Shown piece after piece: positions 29,148 through 37,781 of a stretch of 37,781 nucleotides of DNA. A program made the translations under genes and the position numbers. The DNA lies in contig JAJTUQ010000024.1 of the NCBI GenBank assembly GCA_021399445.1, forward strand, positions 1 through 37,781. The letters run 5' to 3'. The stretch is from Xylogone sp. PMI_703 (taxonomy: Eukaryota; Ascomycota; Leotiomycetes). The stretch's first letter is position 1. Every line of letters starts with the position of its first letter. Under the pieces are notes generated by a model. That model worked only from the letters and a program-made list of their open reading frames with translations, was not told where the DNA came from and did no database searches.

Positions 29148-30710
29148 ATGTCCGGCCTTGAGGTCATCGGGTCGATTGCCAGCGTCGCCCAGCTCGCAGC
29201 GACTGTCTACTCCATTTCCAAGACCCTCTACGAGGTCGCTGACGCTCTGTCAAATGCTTCTGCCAATATAAAAGATCTCGCGCACGATCTGGAGACTTTC
29301 TCAGAAGAGCTCCAGCTTCTCTCGACGTTGCTCGATGCTAAAAATAACCGGTATTCGGACAGCGTCTACAGACTCACGGCCAAGATCATTGGAGACTGCG
29401 CGACGATATGTGTGAAGATCGACGGCATTCTACGCAAGCTGCGCAGCGGGAGTGTGTGGGCACGGATGAAATGGCTCTATAAGGAGAAGGAGGTCATGAA
29501 GCTGCTTGCGAGGCTGCGGGATCTGAAGCTAAGTCTGATGGGGATTTTGAGTCTGCTGAGCGCCTTAAAAGCAGATCATATGCTAAATGCAATGGGGGTG
29601 TCTAACCCGAGTTTGATTCAGGGAACGAAAGATGAGAAATTGGCGCGGGAAGCTATGGAGGATCTAGAGAAAACGAGAAGGAAATTGACTGGCATCTCTA
29701 TAGGACAGCAATTGGACGATTCGATCTCTAGAACGACTCTGACGCCTCAGGGTTGTTTGAAGTCTAAAGCCTCAGAAATGGCTGTCTTCACCAATTTCCA
29801 GCAGTTCCCTCCGCCTACAACGTATTTTGTCCAGCGAAGAAATCACGCTATACCGACGCCTTCAGTCACTGTTGCTGCAAAAGAAGTTGAGAAGTCAGTC
29901 CCAAATATCTCTATTACAGGCGTCGCTTTACCGGGGAGACTCCCCACCGTGCGCAACTCCGAAGCTATGGAATCAGTTGACTCTTTTCATAGTGCTGTAT
30001 CCCATCAGAGCCACGATCTCGTTGATAACAATGAGGTGCTTGTTCAAAGATGGAGAACAGATACGATAGAATCGGCTATGAAACATTTCAAGATGACACG
30101 ACAGGATGCTGAATCTTGGACTTCATCTATCCTAAGACCGAGTATGGAGAGTCATAAGCTATATCTGGAGGAATCCACGAACCTCAATAATGTCTGTTTG
30201 AATGGTATTAATCCTGAAGGCCCTGCGAGAGATGGAGGTTACATCATGGATGTGGAAGCGGAACCTAAAGCTAACAGTTTTGCTGAACCTTCCCGGATCT
30301 CCCCCAACACTTCAGACCTGCCTATACACGCCGTTTCCAGCGTTGATTCCGATAGTTCCAGTAGTGAACTCGTCCCTCAGCCACAGATGATCTCTCATAC
30401 TGATTATTTTCGCAGTCCACAAGGTGAGCCGCAACTTGTCGCAACTATTACCATTGATCGTCGGAGTTCATCTTGGAGCCAACTTTGGCATCGAGCACTC
30501 GAAAAATTGCAAGGTGAAGATCTTAGAACTTGGCAATGGCATCACAACGCCTGGAACTATGCTTACCGACTCAACTCTTCGGGACTCTCTAACAGCGTTA
30601 CGGACGTAGTAATTGCAGTAGTTGAACAATTATTCATAGATATTGATCAAGTAAAAAGGCAAATGAAGGATGTAAAAGACTATGATACTTTTGGTATAGT
30701 CTCGGATTAA
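29148..30710 (+). CDS. HeLo-like / STAND-type N-terminal domain protein
   Basis: Single open frame of 520 aa starting at ATG 29,148. The N-terminus (MSGLEVIGSIASVAQLAATV, then YSISKTLYEVADAL, IKDLAHDLETFSEELQLLST) and the following helices to about residue 170 match the fungal STAND-protein N-terminal/HeLo-like domain. That domain is found on NLR-like receptors, and HeLo relatives act in membrane targeting during incompatibility and cell death. The middle (about 190-430) is low-complexity and Ser/Pro-rich. The C-terminal ~90 residues (LWHRALEKLQGEDLRTWQWH...) form another helical block. No NACHT/NB-ARC P-loop or repeat domain follows, so this is a domain-only protein rather than a full receptor. 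Its stop lies at the edge of the CT-free domain, and its own sequence uses CT normally. The frame is intact; function is inferred from the family only. Confidence 0.75.
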   Translation: MSGLEVIGSIASVAQLAATVYSISKTLYEVADALSNASANIKDLAHDLETFSEELQLLSTLLDAKNNRYSDSVYRLTAKIIGDCATICVKIDGILRKLRSGSVWARMKWLYKEKEVMKLLARLRDLKLSLMGILSLLSALKADHMLNAMGVSNPSLIQGTKDEKLAREAMEDLEKTRRKLTGISIGQQLDDSISRTTLTPQGCLKSKASEMAVFTNFQQFPPPTTYFVQRRNHAIPTPSVTVAAKEVEKSVPNISITGVALPGRLPTVRNSEAMESVDSFHSAVSHQSHDLVDNNEVLVQRWRTDTIESAMKHFKMTRQDAESWTSSILRPSMESHKLYLEESTNLNNVCLNGINPEGPARDGGYIMDVEAEPKANSFAEPSRISPNTSDLPIHAVSSVDSDSSSSELVPQPQMISHTDYFRSPQGEPQLVATITIDRRSSSWSQLWHRALEKLQGEDLRTWQWHHNAWNYAYRLNSSGLSNSVTDVVIAVVEQLFIDIDQVKRQMKDVKDYDTFGIVSD

Positions 30711-30865
30711 ACGTCGTGTTATGTGCACACACAACAAGTTGTATGTAAACGGGGATTGGTCAGATTAAGGTTTTGAGGCCCGTGCAGCGAGAAGACGTTT
30801 TGTGAACACACAACAAGATTAGGGTTATACAATAATCCACGAAATTTAATGATTTGACATCGAAA
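30711..30865 (+). promoter_or_regulatory. short intergenic strip with direct repeats and a telomere-like octamer
   Basis: Only 155 bases separate the HeLo gene from the helicase ATG, so the helicase promoter must be here or inside the upstream gene. GTGCACACACAACAAG (30,723-30,738) recurs as GTGAACACACAACAAG (30,802-30,817), one mismatch in 16, 79 bp apart. TTAGGGTT, the fungal telomere repeat in the same G-strand orientation as the window end, lies at 30,819-30,826. Confidence 0.5.
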
Positions 30866-33800
30866 ATGAATTCAGCATATGAAGTTAGACCCATCCCCGA
30901 AGTTTGGAGCGATATAGTCCATTTGAACGTGAAGTATAAGGTGTTGTTGTGTTTGAGCGACCGGTGCAACAAAGCGGTCAGCGCCCGTGGGTTAGTAGAG
31001 CACATCCGCAGGTATCACGACGTCAAGCCAGCAATCCGGCGTCAAATCGAGCGATATACGAAAGAATTCAAGCATGATTACAATTACGCGACGATTCCCA
31101 TTCCCGAGAATGGTTTGGCACCACAGCCCATCATCCCCATCGTAGATGGATACCAATGTAGAGAGTGTTCGTATATCACCCAAAGCGACCAATATATACG
31201 ACGGCATGCAAATAAGGACCACGAGAAAAAGCGAACAACCATCGACGAGATATGTACCAGAGTACGGTTGCAAACATGGTTTCGGGATGGCAAAGAGCGA
31301 TATTGGGTGGTGGACGAGAGCAAGCAGGCCGACGAGGAGTATCAACGTCGCCAGATCACCGTCCCCGACGTGGGAGAAGTCGACAACAACCCGGTTGACG
31401 GAGAAGGGCCAGATGAGGAAGTCCCAGCGTGGGTTTCGGCCAGTGATCCAATTGCCCAAGAGATCCGGGCATGGGAGATAGCCAAGCAGGAGCATCGTGC
31501 AACATTGTTAGCCACGGTGCCGGCCGACGAGTGGGATCCATGGTTGCGGTTTACCGGATGGAATACAGTATTGCAGCAGTCCAAGCATGATTTGGTCAAG
31601 ACACATGCGTTCAGTGAAGTAGCCAAGCCAGAGGAGCCACAGTTGTGTCGATTGATGGCGGCATGGGGCCGGATTTTGGAGCGGTGTTTGGATACGTTGG
31701 CCAGCGTGGACCACAAAGATGCATTAAAGTGGTGGAAGTCGCCGAAAAATGAGGTGGCCCACCAGCACCCATTTGAATTACACCAGAATTCAAAGTCAGT
31801 GGACCGGTGCAGCGAGGATTGGCAGCGGTTTATATGTTACGCCATGCGCACGGCGCCAGAGGAGGAGGGAGGTGAGACGGGTAAGTAATGAGTTTTATTC
31901 GTACCATTGGAGAGTATGATTATGCAAAGGAGCCCATTCGGAAAGGCATATCAAAAGTTGGACGTGCAGAAGGGGTTTTCAAGAAGGGATTAACCCAGCG
32001 GCAAAGGCGGTATTTAAATCATTTAGGAGTTAAGAAAATGGTCAAGTGATCAATTCAGAGCCGAGAGGTTAAATCATATAGGATTTAAGGGCCAGCGCCA
32101 GTAACCGAAAGGGAGGCCAACCCAGCCAATGTGTAAAGTACGTTAAATCATGTAGGATTTAAGGGCCGGCACCAAGCCGGATTTTTTTTTGCATGACGTA
32201 TACGCCGGAGAAAAAGGATAGATGTTAACGGTGTACAGAGACAGGAGTCACGTTCACCAGCGGCCAGTGGAAGTGTATCAACCGCATACGTGAGTGGATG
32301 GAGGAGAACGAGGATCCCGACGAGCCCACGGCCGAAGACGACCCATTGGCCGATATGTTGATGTGTTTGTGCATGTTGGTGTTAAAGCAGGACACCAGCC
32401 GGATGCCGTTGTACGAGTCGCCGTTGATGCATTATATGGCGGTCCGAGGAATCGACGTCAGCGGCCCACGGTTACGGTCATCCATGCAGTCGACGCCCAC
32501 GATGGGACGCATATTGTGGATCGGGCGATTGATCATGTTAGAGGTGGCGGTCCCATTGGTGGGGTGGCCAGCATTAGGGTTGCAGGCCAGGCACGAGTTG
32601 CGGTCCGTCCCGCAGCGGATCCAGGAGATTCGACGACACCATTTGTGCGAGGGGTCGTATTCACCAATATCCAGCATTTTGTCGCAGTTAGCCAAGGGCA
32701 AAAAGTCCAACGATGAACATCAGGAACCGTCGAATATCCATTGGTCCCACGACGAAGAAACGATTTATTATCAGGGACCAGGAATCCGGATGGATAGTTT
32801 ACGCAGGATGTGTCGGAATTTAATTAGCGAATTAAGAATATTAATTCGAGAATTGATGTTTGACCAGCCACCACCCACGATTGATTTGACGACAATCGAG
32901 GATTCGATGGCGTGGAATACGCATTTTCGACGAGTTGAATATAATTTTATTGAGAACGTCAAAAATCAGAAGCAGTGCAAAGTTGGGTGGGAATATTTGT
33001 ACCGGCGGGCACGGCAGAAGGGCGGACCATGGTCATTAATCAAGCGGGCAGCAGATGGGACGGAGACGTGGAACGAGTCACAGAAGAGAGGGTATTTAAA
33101 CCGGGAAAGGGAGTTTTTGCGGAAGTTGATGGTGACGATGCATATCACAGGAGGACAGCCGGCGCGGGGGCCGGAGATCGGGTCGATCAAGGTCAGCAAC
33201 AGCGTATATTCGGCACGCAACATATACGTGATCAACGGGCAGGTATGTTTTTTGACGATGTACGACAAGTCACGCAAACGGCGAGGCAACACGGATTACA
33301 TCGTGCGATTTTTACCAACGGCGGTCAGCCAGATGGTGGTACAGTATTTGGTGTACGTGCGGCCATTCGCGCGGGCATTAGACCGTCGCGAGTCGGAGTA
33401 TTTGTTCGCGGACGAGGGCAAGCCGTGGGCAGGGGAGGAGTTGAGCAATCAGTTGGCCAAAGACAGCCAGAGGTATTTAGGAGTGCGGTTGACGACGCGG
33501 GGATATCGACAGGTGGCGATCGGGATAGCGGTGCGCAAGTTGGGACGGGCCAGCCGGACGTGGGAGAAGGAGGAGGGAATGAAGGGGGAGGAGGAGGACG
33601 AGGACGAGGGTGAAGAGGAGGAAGCAGAGGGAGATGGAGAAGAGACAGGAGGATTAGCATTGGATACGTTTCGACATGCGTTGATTCGGTGAGTGATTTT
33701 TATTTTTTTATATTTTTTATATTTTTATATTTTTATTTAATATTTTTAATTTTTAATTTGGTTATTTTATCATACAAAAAGATAAAAGGAGAAAGTTGGT

Positions 33801-36371
33801 AATAGATGAGGTTAGCAAGTAGGGAGAGGGTGAGAGTTGGCAAGGGCCACAGTGAAAGCAGAGTTTAAATCATACAGGAGTTAAAGGAGTAGAACAGTCA
33901 AGTGATTGAACAGCGAGAGGTTAAATCATACAGGAGTTAAGGGATAAGCACAGCAGCCAATCAGAAAGCAAGGCATTAAATCATAAAGGATTTAAGGGCC
34001 ACGTTCGTACAGTGGTTACGTATTTGAACACATCAATGTCACATATTCAGGAGGTTTAGCAGATTGAGTAAAGATTTGGGTTGACAAGTTATACAGGCAA
34101 GCCGGGCATCAACGACGCGTCGCACAACAGCATTACGCCATCGACGGGAATTTTTTGCATCGATTGGGGCCAGAGTTGATCAGCGTGTTCGAGCAGGCAT
34201 CAGTCAAGTGGCATGAGTTTTTGGAGTTGGAGACGATGAGCACATGGTATTATGCCACCGGCAGCAAAGGTGAAGTAAAACGTCGGACCAAGCACGAGCG
34301 AGGCATCAGCGAGGAGTTGATGAGGTATAGCATCCCACGACGTATCAAGAGAGAGCATCAAGTTAAGGCCGACGCGGACCAGGCCAGAGGCGTCCATCAC
34401 AAGAAAGCCGCGCAAGCAACGAGCAAGGCAGTCCAAGGGATCCGGGCGATATACGGACCACAAGGACGATTCAAGTCGGTGGAGCAGCAAGAAGCGATGG
34501 AGTTTATGCATCACGGCCATACAACATCGATCATCGTGTTACCGACCAGCAGCGGCAAGTCAGTGTTGTTTTTTTCGATGGCAGCAACGGTGGTACAGCA
34601 AACGGTAGTAGTGGTGGTTCCATTTGCAGCATTAGTGGATGATATTATGGAGCGTGGACGAGAGGCCGGATTGAATTGCGAAGAATGGCGAGATGAGCAC
34701 AGTGGTAAGGAGTTACAACAGTTGATAGTGGTCAGCGCAGACCGAGCCGTCAACGGGCCGTTTTTGCAGTATGCGCAAGGGATGCAGATCCGGGGACAGT
34801 TGGCGCATATGTTTTTCGACGAGTGCCACGTTGCAATCACAGACATATCATACCGAGCACGATTGCGAACATTGTGGCAGTTACGGTATATTGGGTGTCG
34901 ATTTACGGGGTTGACAGCGACGTTGATAGTAGATTTGGAGTGGATATTACGAGAGCAATTGTCGATTGAGGGAGCGGTATTATTTCGACGACATACAGCA
35001 CGGCGGACGATTCGATATCGGGTGATTGACAGCAAGAATGAGCCGCCATTCGAGGTTGGGATTCGAGTTGTGCAGCAATTAGGAGAGTTTTCGGGCAACC
35101 AGGGTGGGATTATATACGTACGTAGTTATGCGGTGGGCGAGAAAGTTCAGGAAATATTGGGATGTCCGTTTTACAAGGCCACAGCGGAGGATAAAGGGGA
35201 GATGTTACAACAGTGGATACGGGGAGAGTGGAGGGAAAGGAAGGAGAGAAGTGAGACAGAGGAGACCGAGGAGGGAGAGGAGAAGCAGGAGAGAGGGATC
35301 GAGGAAAGAAGGACAAGGGGACAGGGGAAGGGTTGGATCGTAGCCACAGGAGCGTTGGGGACGGGGATCAACATCGAAGGCATCCGATACGTCATTCACA
35401 TTGACCGGCCATACGGATTGACGAGTTTCGTACAGCAGAGCGGACGTGGAGGACGAAGTGGTGAGGTGAGCGAGTCGATAATCGTAGTTAATGTCAAGCA
35501 CACGCGGCCATTCAAGGGGGAGGAGGAAATTACGGCGTACAGCGTGGAGGAGGTAGACGAGCAGGCAATGACAGAGTATATCCAAAGTCGACCATGTCGA
35601 CGGATAGTGTTAGGACGGTATATGGATGGCGTGGTGCGAGTGGATTGCGGACGGGTTGACGGGGTGTTGTGTGACGTATGCCACAAGAGAGCAGCACAAG
35701 AGCAGTACATCCGGGAAGAGGAGGGAAGTAAGGCAGAAGAAGACGGAGGAGGAGAGGGAAGAGAGGTGAGGTTTGAAGGAGAAACAAGTGAGTCAGGGAT
35801 TGAACGGGAAGAAGAAGAAGGGCCACGGGTGGAAATTCGACAACGGTTGGGGATGGAGGAGATGACGGATGGGGAGATGTTTTGGGTGATGGGGGAGTTG
35901 CAGAAGAGATGTATATATTGCGAATTGACGCAGGAAGGCGAAGCAAAGGCGGAGATTCACGAGTACACGGATTGTGAATTGGCGTCACGGGCAGGATGTG
36001 GAATGGTAGCATACGAGCAATGGCGAGAGGAGGTGCGGTTAGACGTAGGGCAACAGTGTTGGGAGTGTGGATTGACGCAAGAGTTGTGTCGGCGCGTTGA
36101 ACGAGGGTTGGCGGAGTGTGAATATTCGATGGTGATGTTGGTGGGAATATTCATCATGATGCAGCAGGAGGCGGGATGGAGGAGGATTGGATGGGACATT
36201 GGATTTCGAGGGCAAAGTCGGAAGGAGATAGTTCAATGGATGGGACAGTGGGAGGCGAATTGGTGGGTGGGAGGGCGATGGGAGAACAATTGGATGCGAG
36301 TGTGGCGATGGATATGTCGATTATACGTGTACGAGCAGGCGGGAGCGTTACGGGTGATGAAAGGAGATTAA
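30866..36371 (+). CDS. telomere-linked RecQ-type helicase (OrsD-type zinc fingers, central recombinase-like domain, RecQ), three exons
   Basis: Exons 30,866-31,880, 32,239-33,688 and 34,097-36,371 join in frame to 1,579 aa; an alternative acceptor (exon 2 from 32,245) also keeps frame. The frame upstream of ATG 30,866 has no earlier ATG. Exon 1 has two C2H2-like fingers of the OrsD/DUF3505 type: C29-x4-C34...H46-x4-H51 and C98-x2-C101...H114-x4-H119. The central part has Arg648 in GGQPARGPEI, Arg762 in TTRGYRQVAIGI, and His826 and Tyr835 in AGHQRRVAQQHY, with the GH-x8-Y spacing of tyrosine recombinases. The helicase has motif I LPTSSGKS (~970-977), motif II DECH (~1063-1066), LTATL, GALGTGINIEG and motif VI QQSGRGGRSGE (~1268). 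Cys pairs follow (LCDVCHKR, CIYCELTQ, CWECGLTQELCR). Glu-rich inserts lie near 790-810 and 1202-1232. No stop or shift was found. Members of this family sit next to telomeres; a role in telomere or subtelomere recombination is inferred. Confidence 0.88.
31881..32238 (+). other. helicase intron 1 with three palindromic repeats
   Basis: GTAAGT donor after ...GAGACG-G and TACAG (or GACAG six bases on) acceptor. At ~358 bp it is several times longer than other introns in the window. It carries TTAAATC-N6-GATTTAA-type motifs at 32,014-32,033, 32,069-32,088 and 32,143-32,162 and has no CT. Confidence 0.75.
32014..32162 (+). repeat. palindromic repeat array 1 (3 motifs)
   Basis: Motifs at 32,014-32,033 (second arm GAGTTAA), 32,069-32,088 and 32,143-32,162 (both perfect). 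Steps are 55 and 74 bp. Sequence between the first two, including TCAAGTGAT and CCGAGAGG, matches intron 2. Confidence 0.85.
33689..34096 (+). other. helicase intron 2 with subtelomeric repeat modules
   Basis: GTGAGT donor after ATTCG; ATACAG acceptor; 408 bp. It splits the recombinase-like signature (Arg762 in exon 2, His826/Tyr835 in exon 3). Order inside: a T-rich tract (33,700-33,770), a GATGAGGTTAGCAAGTAGGG minisatellite-like piece (from ~33,806), then three palindromic motifs (33,865, 33,921, 33,976). Confidence 0.8.
33865..33995 (+). repeat. palindromic repeat array 2 (3 motifs)
   Basis: Motifs at 33,865-33,884, 33,921-33,940 (both with second arm GAGTTAA) and 33,976-33,995 (perfect). 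Steps are 56 and 55 bp. AGTCAAGTGATTGAACAGCG between the first two corresponds to intron 1. Confidence 0.85.
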
Positions 36372-36517
36372 GAGTTGTGAGATCGGGACAGTCAGGAGAG
36401 AGGGAATGATTAGAGATTAGGATTGGGTAGTCAAATCGGAAGGAAAAGGAAACGGGAGAAGCAAAGGAAGAAGCAAAAGGAAGGGTAAAAGGAAAGATGT
36501 GAATGATAACCAAGGAG
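36372..36517 (+). other. helicase 3' flank, purine-rich
   Basis: Immediately after the TAA. Strongly A/G-biased plus strand, no gene, no CT. It probably contains the 3' untranslated region; no clear poly(A) signal stands out. Confidence 0.4.
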
Positions 36518-36557
36518 ATTGCGAAGCAATCAAGCCAATAGCATCGGCGCGAAGCGC
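36518..36557 (+). repeat. paired GCGAAGC mini-hairpins, copy 1
   Basis: ATTGC-GAA-GCAAT (36,518-36,530) and GCGC-GAA-GCGC (36,547-36,557) each contain GCGAAGC. This sequence is known from in vitro work to form an exceptionally stable DNA mini-hairpin. They are separated by 16 bases. Confidence 0.8.
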
Positions 36558-36631
36558 ACAAGGGGAGAAAGGTGAAAAAGATATGGATTTAACAATAGTA
36601 TCAAGGTAAGGGAAAATAAATTAAATAATAT

Positions 36632-36632
36632 A

Positions 36633-36679
<47 letters not shown>

Positions 36680-36690
36680 GAAGAAAGAAG
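36632..36690 (+). repeat. (AAAG)n microsatellite
   Basis: About twelve AAAG units with one or two interruptions at the right end. It lies in unit 1 of the tandem duplication only. Confidence 0.9.
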
Positions 36691-36748
36691 ATGTTAGATT
36701 AGCAGTTTACAGGAAAGGGAGATAATTAAACAATTAGAAAGCAAGAAG

Positions 36749-36824
36749 TTAAATCATATAGGAGGTAAGAAAGTAAGTATAGTAATCAATTAAAGAGCAG
36801 AAAGTTAAATCATAAAGGATTTAA
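36749..36824 (+). repeat. palindromic repeat array 3 (2 motifs)
   Basis: Motifs at 36,749-36,768 (second arm GAGGTAA) and 36,805-36,824 (perfect), 56 bp apart, downstream of the helicase. The spacer keeps the AATCAAT...AGAGCAG pattern. Confidence 0.8.
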
Positions 36825-36959
36825 GGACAGTAATTATAAACAGTTAAGAGAAGAATAATAATAATACAAAATTAGATGTATAAAAGGAAATTTGAGAAAA
36901 GAAAAGTTGGGAGATAAAGCAAAAGGAGTAATTAATAAATCAGGATTAGATATTCAAGG

Positions 36960-36999
36960 ATTGCGAAGCAATTAACCCAATAGCATCGGCGCGAAGCGC
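36960..36999 (+). repeat. paired GCGAAGC mini-hairpins, copy 2
   Basis: ATTGC-GAA-GCAAT (36,960-36,972) and GCGC-GAA-GCGC (36,989-36,999), same spacing as copy 1. Both hairpins are perfectly kept although the surrounding unit has diverged. Confidence 0.8.
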
Positions 37000-37135
37000 A
37001 CAGAAGAAAAAAAGGGGTAAAGATATAGATTTGGCAATAGTACAAAGTAAAGCGTAAAAGGTATAAAGTAAAGGGGAAACAAGTTAGATTAGTAATTTAA
37101 GTAAATTAATAATTGAATAATAAGTCAACAATAAG

Positions 37136-37210
37136 TTGAATCAGATAAGAATTAAGAAAACAAATAATTAAGTAATCAAAAAGCAAAGAAATAAATTATA
37201 GAGAATTTAA
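37136..37210 (+). repeat. palindromic repeat array 4 (2 degenerate motifs)
   Basis: Degenerate motifs at 37,136-37,155 (TTGAATC...GAATTAA) and 37,191-37,210 (ATAAATT...AATTTAA), 55 bp apart. They occupy the same place in the second half of the 442-bp tandem duplication as array 3 does in the first. Confidence 0.6.
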
Positions 37211-37519
37211 AAGTAAGTATAATAATTAATTAAAAAGTATAAAATATTAAGATTAGTATATAAAAGAGAATTTAGATTATTTGGTGAAATAAAAGAAAAG
37301 AGTTTAAAGGGATTAAAAAGAAAAGAAAAAAAAAGAATGAAGAGAAAAATAAAAGAGAATAATGAAATATAAAGAAAGAAATAAGAAAAAAATAAAAACA
37401 TAAATATATATGAAAAAGAAATAAAAATAAGAAATGAAAATATAGTAAGAATAAGTAAGAGAAATCAGGGAAGAGAGTTAAAATAAGAGAGTAAAGAGTA
37501 AAAGTTAATAATTAGGAAT

Positions 37520-37705
37520 TAGTTTGAAAGTGAGGATTAGTAGTAGGTGAGAGGGTGAGGGTTAGTAGTTAGTGGTAAGTGAGAGGGTGAGGGTTAGTAG
37601 TAGGTAAGATGAGGTTGATATTGGTGGTAAGTGAGAGGTGAGGTTGGTGATAAGTGAGAGGGTGAGGGTTGGTGATAAGTGAGAGGGTGAGGTTAGTGGT
37701 TGATG
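37520..37705 (+). repeat. degenerate G-rich minisatellite, telomere-like
   Basis: Irregular repeats of GTAAGTGAGAGGGTGAGG followed by GTTAGTAGT or GTTGGTGAT. They contain GAGGGTTAG, which overlaps the fungal TTAGGG repeat out of phase. The G-rich strand runs 5' to 3' toward the window end, suggesting that the telomere lies to the right. A similar piece is in helicase intron 2 near 33,806-33,845. Confidence 0.7.
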
Positions 37706-37781
37706 AAAGGAAAGTTAGTAATTATAACGTTAATAAATAATAAAAGAGAAGTGTAGATAAAAAGAGTATAGATAAAAAGAG

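Follow-up and report, generated by a model that had tools for sequence, protein, structure and literature searches.

Telomere-linked RecQ-like helicase (TLH) genes have a role that is, to our knowledge, unsettled. Passages of three papers mention them for Fusarium, Magnaporthe, Metarhizium, Ustilago and Agaricus (PMC12857005, PMC7473861, PMC8381367), and according to a passage of the first, telomeric retrotransposons occur alongside TLH genes in Fusarium (PMC12857005). Cryptons, as outlined in part of PMC3212892, are fungal DNA elements that encode a tyrosine recombinase, lack terminal inverted repeats and recombine at very short sequences; most fungal Cryptons have a GCR1_C domain and 6-bp terminal direct repeats. 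Poxvirus topoisomerases, according to an excerpt of PMC2666729, favour cleavage at (C/T)CCTT. Here we describe a terminal element of Xylogone sp. PMI_703 that compares with each of these systems. It occupies positions 30703–37781 of the window, which is the whole 37,781-nucleotide stretch analysed (JAJTUQ010000024.1) and represents the complete contig C17 of a 50.1-Mb, 25-contig genome; the parts of the element and its flank mapped below are given on its plus strand. The element has an exact 5′ end, reaches the contig end on its 3′ side, carries no CT dinucleotide on the plus strand and encodes a protein with a RecQ-like helicase and a predicted tyrosine recombinase. The element sits directly after a CT in all 15 copies found. 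We consider it probable that the predicted recombinase cuts and joins after CT, and that CT has been purged from the element by selection, since a copy with a CT inside it would become a target of the next element.

The link with TLH genes that was drawn in an initial annotation of this DNA holds: the locus has the same RecQ-like helicase core and is present in multiple copies near contig ends, which we take to be telomeric. It differs in having an exact 5′ end, a predicted recombinase domain, a CT target and a missing dinucleotide, none of which is described for TLH genes in the passages of the three papers. As in Cryptons, a fungal DNA element would be associated with a tyrosine recombinase (here a predicted one); in contrast to them, it has helicase and OrsD domains, a two-base target and a terminal far end, and GCR1_C gave no match in four open reading frames (ORFs) of the window or in six homologues. 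MoTeR and FoTeR are likewise chromosome-end elements with truncated copies, but they differ in encoding reverse transcriptase and in having telomere motifs on their flanks; no reverse transcriptase domain was found in the four window ORFs scanned, three of which lie in the element. With the topoisomerase IB and tyrosine recombinase enzymes (poxvirus topoisomerase, Xer and Cre), the predicted protein has catalytic residues and a model-based structural match in common, but no family match at the sequence level, and its target-side specificity appears to be CT alone. A literature search yielded, among the matches listed, no paper on a CT-free element and none on a telomere-linked helicase with a recombinase.

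Absence of CT from one strand

The 7,079 bases at 30703–37781 contain 0 CT on the plus strand, against 222 expected from base composition (C 15.0%, T 20.9%), and 2,000 base shuffles of the stretch gave 181–274 CT, never 0. Our count confirms the complete absence reported in the initial annotation, as well as its large deficit, with the expectation of about 250 given there revised to about 222. Elsewhere in the window, the longest gap from one CT to the next is 126 bases, and the final CT of the contig (30701–30702) directly adjoins the CT-free stretch. The rule is specific to one strand, as had been proposed: AG occurs 758 times on the plus strand of the same stretch (observed/expected 1.04). 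It also extends, again as first described, across coding, intronic and other DNA, with zero CT in the 163-base leader before the ATG (6.9 expected), the coding sequence (172.1), intron 1 (13.3), intron 2 (12.5) and the 3′ tail (13.2). All 102 leucines of the CT-free gene are encoded by TTA or TTG, and the codons GCT, CCT, ACT and TCT are absent; CTN encodes 40 of the 52 leucines in the upstream neighbouring ORF. The long protein noted at the outset does appear intact, at a length of 1,577 residues in our gene model rather than 1,579. The accompanying idea that the protein had adapted to the rule falls away: the genetic code allows any amino-acid sequence to be written without CT on the sense strand, and changes relative to a diverged copy described below are mostly synonymous (ratio of non-synonymous to synonymous substitution rates, dN/dS, 0.10), so there was no need for the protein to adapt.

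Copies at other contig ends

Searching the genome for the protein recovered, near the right ends of contigs C8, C14, C17, C20 and C24, five copies of 100% identity, of which three cover all 738 residues and the others 732 and 730. It also recovered a partial copy at the left end of C9, a diverged copy on C5 and nine further, weaker matches. When the first 1.2 kb of the element served as a DNA query, C12 proved to carry a short piece at its end and C25 a 92% relic in its interior, and weaker matches appeared on C6, C24, C14 and C13. The short terminal pieces on C12 and C5 are CT-free. The suggestion that other contig ends and helicase copies might also show zero CT was borne out by terminal copies on C14, C20, C24 and, apart from its tail, C8, and by the copy at the left end of C9, which has the opposite orientation and lacks AG throughout 3,915 bases. 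The CT-free zone of each main copy begins at an identical first base and runs to the contig end, with the exception of approximately the last 200 bases of C8, which carry 7 CT where C replaces A. This tail (C8:200599–200799) has TTCGGG arrays in place of the TTAGGG-like arrays of sister copies and holds the only CT in any main copy; the change from A to C is probably a low-coverage consensus problem, though an oddly systematic one. An exact run of three TTAGGG units was found nowhere in the assembly, and it seems that the assembly does not include canonical telomeres.

For 20 of the 25 contigs the initial 10 kb were read, and such a zone was present at C9 only. Across overlapping 500-base windows of all sequence retrieved, 200 of 1,371 had CT or AG below 0.35 of expectation (windows had to reach 400 bases, and scoring of a dinucleotide required more than five expected occurrences); the windows are not independent, as the loci overlap, and two of the loci come from other genomes. 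We read the low-CT or low-AG windows as falling in element copies, in relics (C24 at about 1262 kb, C25, and C24 at about 1069 kb) or just upstream of the C24 copy. The last of these stretches (C24:1289400–1289899) lies directly upstream of the C24 copy, has CT at 0.3 of expectation, is partly repeated on other contigs and is perhaps the tail of an older relic. Just inside the C9 element, a second RecQ-like ORF of 485 residues (C9:4817–6274) points inward and has ordinary CT and AG.

An assembly or polishing artefact might be suspected from the position of the main copies at contig ends and from the odd A-to-C change in the C8 tail. We rejected this explanation, to which we assign almost no probability, on the grounds of the intact 1,577-residue frame (dN/dS 0.10 to the diverged copy), the occurrence on several contigs and in either orientation, and the same depletion in a relic family of 26% identity.

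Element starts follow CT

We located element starts using a 16-base pattern from the 5′ terminus (30703–30718), a candidate recombinase-recognition end. The pattern has 15 occurrences in the genome, all with the identical first base and mostly with unrelated flanks; its 16 bases are conserved by construction, given that the copies were found with it, and the preceding CT lies outside it. CT directly precedes all 15 starts. None of the other ten upstream positions inspected is conserved (G occurs at −3 in 8 of 15), and one flank is common to two starts, namely those of the second copy on C14 and the third copy on C5. Weaker 5′-end matches (one or two mismatches) numbered 4, against 2 for a reversed control pattern. 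The main copies have no assembled right flank, and the left end abuts CT in every copy found. At the window junction, this CT (30701–30702) lies in the host flank and is the predicted cut-and-join target.

We further used flanks trimmed to finish at the CT itself as genome queries and judged the presence of CT at other sites from the alignment end-points; at the scoring implied by the bit scores, we infer that an alignment through the last base must include both letters. The C17 flank has one other site, on C3, which is aligned through the last base: C3:581768–582570 is a near-identical duplicate of the last 803 bases of the host flank, with no element start found there, and represents a recent duplication. 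All four other sites of the C8 flank run through the last base (78–82% identity), as do five of the eight other sites of the C5 flank (95–100%), the remaining three ending at positions 911, 424 and 380 of 948. None of the ten CT-reaching paralogous sites is among the 15 element starts or the DNA matches to the first 1.2 kb. Paralogous sites of the flanks include C4:255543 and C1:9059967 besides that on C3. Because ten paralogues of three flanks, none with an element found, reach the CT, these alignments most simply suggest that CT was present in the target before the element for three of the six flanks tested.

The junction also bears on two other explanations. In the first, AG would be avoided on a C-rich antisense transcript, for example to leave it without 3′ splice sites, and the AG at the boundary would be an acceptor. 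The boundary is the first AG on the antisense strand and the rule covers all compartments, but CT already present in target paralogues is not predicted by avoidance of splicing AG, and we regard this explanation as very improbable. In the second, broken 3′ ends finishing in CT would anneal to the junction CT of a donor and be copied outward to the telomere, the recombinase being incidental. CT at the junction in donor and target alike, and near-identical terminal copies of the kind that replicative spread would give, agree with such microhomology-primed copying; however, it leaves open why CT alone of the 16 dinucleotides would prime, and the element encodes a conserved recombinase-like domain. 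We therefore think that this route is unlikely, and equally so its corollary that internal CT was selected against since copies would start too far in.

Truncated and diverged copies

Nested copies are cut at CT. C14 has a copy that is identical over positions 1–753, is cut off there and is followed by a full copy; C5 has copy 1, then copy 2 (cut at 753 as on C14, with its last 212 bases identical to the main family) and then copy 3. The nested starts on both contigs directly follow a CT. Element positions 753–754 (31455–31456 in the window) are CC in the window copy and in two diverged copies, and CT in the truncated C14 and C5 copies, where a new element begins. The simplest reading is that a C-to-T change at these positions made a CT to which the next element joined; alternatively, the T at position 754 of the nested copies possibly came from the donor element.

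CT is also nearly absent from diverged lineages. Between C5 copy 1 and the main family there are 483 substitutions in 3,183 aligned bases, and the copy contains one CT; over 945 codons, dS is 0.67 and dN is 0.07 (dN/dS 0.10). Random placement of the substitutions in its best-aligned part, an alignment that leaves out the part with its sole internal CT, gave a mean of 38 CT and a minimum of 23, against 0 observed. The corresponding simulation gave 6.5 CT for C5 copy 2 (0 observed) and 22.8 for the C25 relic, which has 6, all derived from CC. A much older family with 26% protein identity (C24, approximately 1261.97–1264.00 kb) contains 5 AG, equivalent to CT on the coding strand, where 79.5 would be expected in its 2,033 bases; the limits of this stretch were set on the depletion itself, and the match carries stop codons. 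With a single CT in a copy at a dS of 0.67, the proposal in the initial annotation of a long-kept constraint at the DNA level is upheld.

The same annotation had considered a strand-biased mutator or base modification, for instance deamination of C in CpT on an exposed G-strand or in telomeric R-loops, turning CT into TT. Such a process would fit the excess of TT (observed/expected 1.49 over the whole stretch and 1.45 outside the coding sequence), a strand polarity that tracks the contig end, in C9 as in the right-end contigs, and the scarcity of C towards that end. At fourfold degenerate third positions before T (GGN, GTN and CGN; NCN codons were set aside, as NCT is excluded anyway), however, we counted A 31, G 34 and T 4 (n = 69), compared with 20 T expected under conversion of CT to TT (p = 0.0001) and 9 under plain exclusion (p = 0.18). 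This lack of TT replacement at free third positions speaks against a mutator. CC-to-TT exchanges made up 0 of 43 pyrimidine changes, a weak test given that the region is mostly coding and coding constraint acts too. A mutator would also not predict that one and the same element base limits the zone in each main copy and that the abutting CT is kept at 15 of 15 starts, and we judge it quite unlikely. Repeat-induced point mutation or a deaminase acting from C to T at CT was rejected on the same third positions (T 4 of 69 against 20), although TT is in excess across the region (1.49), which speaks for such a process. The evidence favours a further candidate from the initial annotation, an incoming element from a system that cuts at this dinucleotide.

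Predicted recombinase–helicase

The 1,577-residue product combines an OrsD region, a tyrosine-recombinase/topoisomerase-IB-like domain and a RecQ-like helicase. Exon 1 (30866–31880; limits from the reading frame and homologues) encodes the OrsD zinc-finger region, and the ORF at 30854–31888 matches Pfam OrsD (E = 2.5e-13). Intron 1 (31881–32244) and intron 2 (33689–34096), both GT..AG and CT-free, enclose exon 2 (32245–33688), which encodes most of the recombinase-like domain (about residues 560–860), including R646 (at 33165), K680 (33267) and R760 (33507). Exon 3 (34097–36371) encodes the end of this domain, with H824 (34107) and the predicted nucleophile Y833 (34134–34136), and the RecQ-like helicase. 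The helicase core (34485–35462) has DEAD/ResIII and Helicase_C matches (Pfam E = 4.6e-8 for DEAD and 5.4e-10 for Helicase_C), a profile built from 36 homologues hits RECQL5 (E = 6.3e-55), and a deposited protein of Xylogone sp. PMI_703 matches the helicase ORF at 100% identity, covering 87% of the ORF. Close homologues include proteins of Pseudogymnoascus destructans and Botrytis and others from metagenome contigs. The recombinase residues are conserved in the homologue alignment (R 63/63, K 63/63, R 65/65, H 58/59 and Y 59/60, leaving out gapped sequences); the position following the second R holds Q in this protein and H in 40 of 65 homologues. In structural alignment of a predicted model, Xer and Cre top the list, consistent with the catalytic-domain fold of tyrosine recombinases and topoisomerase IB. 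Foldseek comparison of a first model with viral structures listed mainly helicases and polyproteins, and that of a second model with the PDB and a viral structure library gave nothing significant.

Proposed mechanism

We propose that the recombinase would be the enzyme that cuts at CT, doing so after the dinucleotide to leave a 3′-phosphotyrosine on the T, and that it would then accept the 5′ end of the element. The CT-containing site of poxvirus topoisomerases, which belong to the same fold class, suggests that a CT site is not foreign to such enzymes. With a terminal far end, joining, either conservative or through copying by synthesis, would cap the chromosome end, with loss of the distal sequence. 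Any CT arising in a resident copy would make that copy a target and cost it the helicase half, and CT-free copies would persist. The RecQ-like helicase may engage the 3′ overhang and move inward as it unwinds, so that the only strand exposed would be the one whose 5′-to-3′ direction points at the telomere; 3′-to-5′ translocation is a property of other RecQ enzymes. Attack limited to that strand is the least supported step of the scheme, and AG (CT on the other strand) would be tolerated because only the telomere-ward strand would be attacked. We lean slightly towards the view that this is a self-immune chromosome-end element that has removed the two-base target of its recombinase from one whole strand, its mobile unit being all DNA between the telomere and the first CT reached on the way inward. 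In transposition target immunity of Tn7 and Mu, proteins clear targets; both kinds of immunity protect copies from self-insertion, and here the protection would lie in the DNA sequence.

Several observations weigh against this scheme, which builds on sequence and predicted structure, with joining and cleavage themselves deduced. Plain Foldseek against PDB found nothing significant (best E = 0.38; Cre entries at only 5.7–9.3), Pfam recombinase families had no match in the four window ORFs or six homologues, the confidence of the model is low around the tyrosine, and the notes of the structural aligner caution that helical models may reach such Z scores through a common arrangement. Among the flanks, the one other site of the C20 flank ends 5 bases before the CT, the nearest of 13 other sites of the C24 flank end 2 and 7 bases short of it, and the C9 flank has no other site found in the genome. 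The cuts at 753 on C14 and C5 may share one origin, given that the last 212 bases of C5 copy 2 are identical to the main family, and may be a single event spread by recombination; C5 copy 1 is itself a truncated relic whose aligned sequence contains one in-frame stop; and no insertion occurred at its one CT or at the six of the C25 relic. The TT excess of 1.49 is higher than the approximately 1.18 reckoned for pure exclusion and is not fully accounted for. Outside the genome, a search for related DNA found no relative among viral contigs and two loci among genome contigs: L050, on a bacterial contig, matches the helicase part only, and L049, a locus of 3,348 bases on a metagenome contig with 25% identity, has normal CT. 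Because this distant relative has normal CT, the rule may belong to the present subfamily and not be common to the wider family.

If the scheme is correct, self-protection would be achieved by a restricted vocabulary rather than by an insertion-repelling protein, with one dinucleotide gone from 7 kb of one strand while a 1,577-residue protein was kept, and a one-dinucleotide grammar would define where a mobile element begins. Telomere-linked helicases would gain a concrete function in a recombinase–helicase element that caps chromosome ends. The fingerprint, a strand-specific missing dinucleotide equal to the junction dinucleotide, could then be used to find such elements and to read their target sites from sequence alone.

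Other features of the window

The host flank (29148–30702) contains a 520-residue ORF that extends 8 bases into the element, ending at 30710, and has a weak PigL_N match under the curated cut-off. Close to the 5′ end of the element are two 21-base direct repeats (30718–30738 and 30797–30817, 90% identical), candidate protein-binding sites. The 3′ tail (36372–37781) is A/G-rich, with 4.5% C, and includes a telomere-like minisatellite at approximately 37511–37725. The tail also carries a direct repeat of 100 bases (36517–36616 and 36959–37058; 80% identical) with short palindromes. A hairpin-like repeat (TTAAATCAT..AGGATTTAAGG) occurs eight times, within 32009–34007 and 36744–36836, in both introns and the 3′ tail, with a spacing of approximately 55 bases in places.

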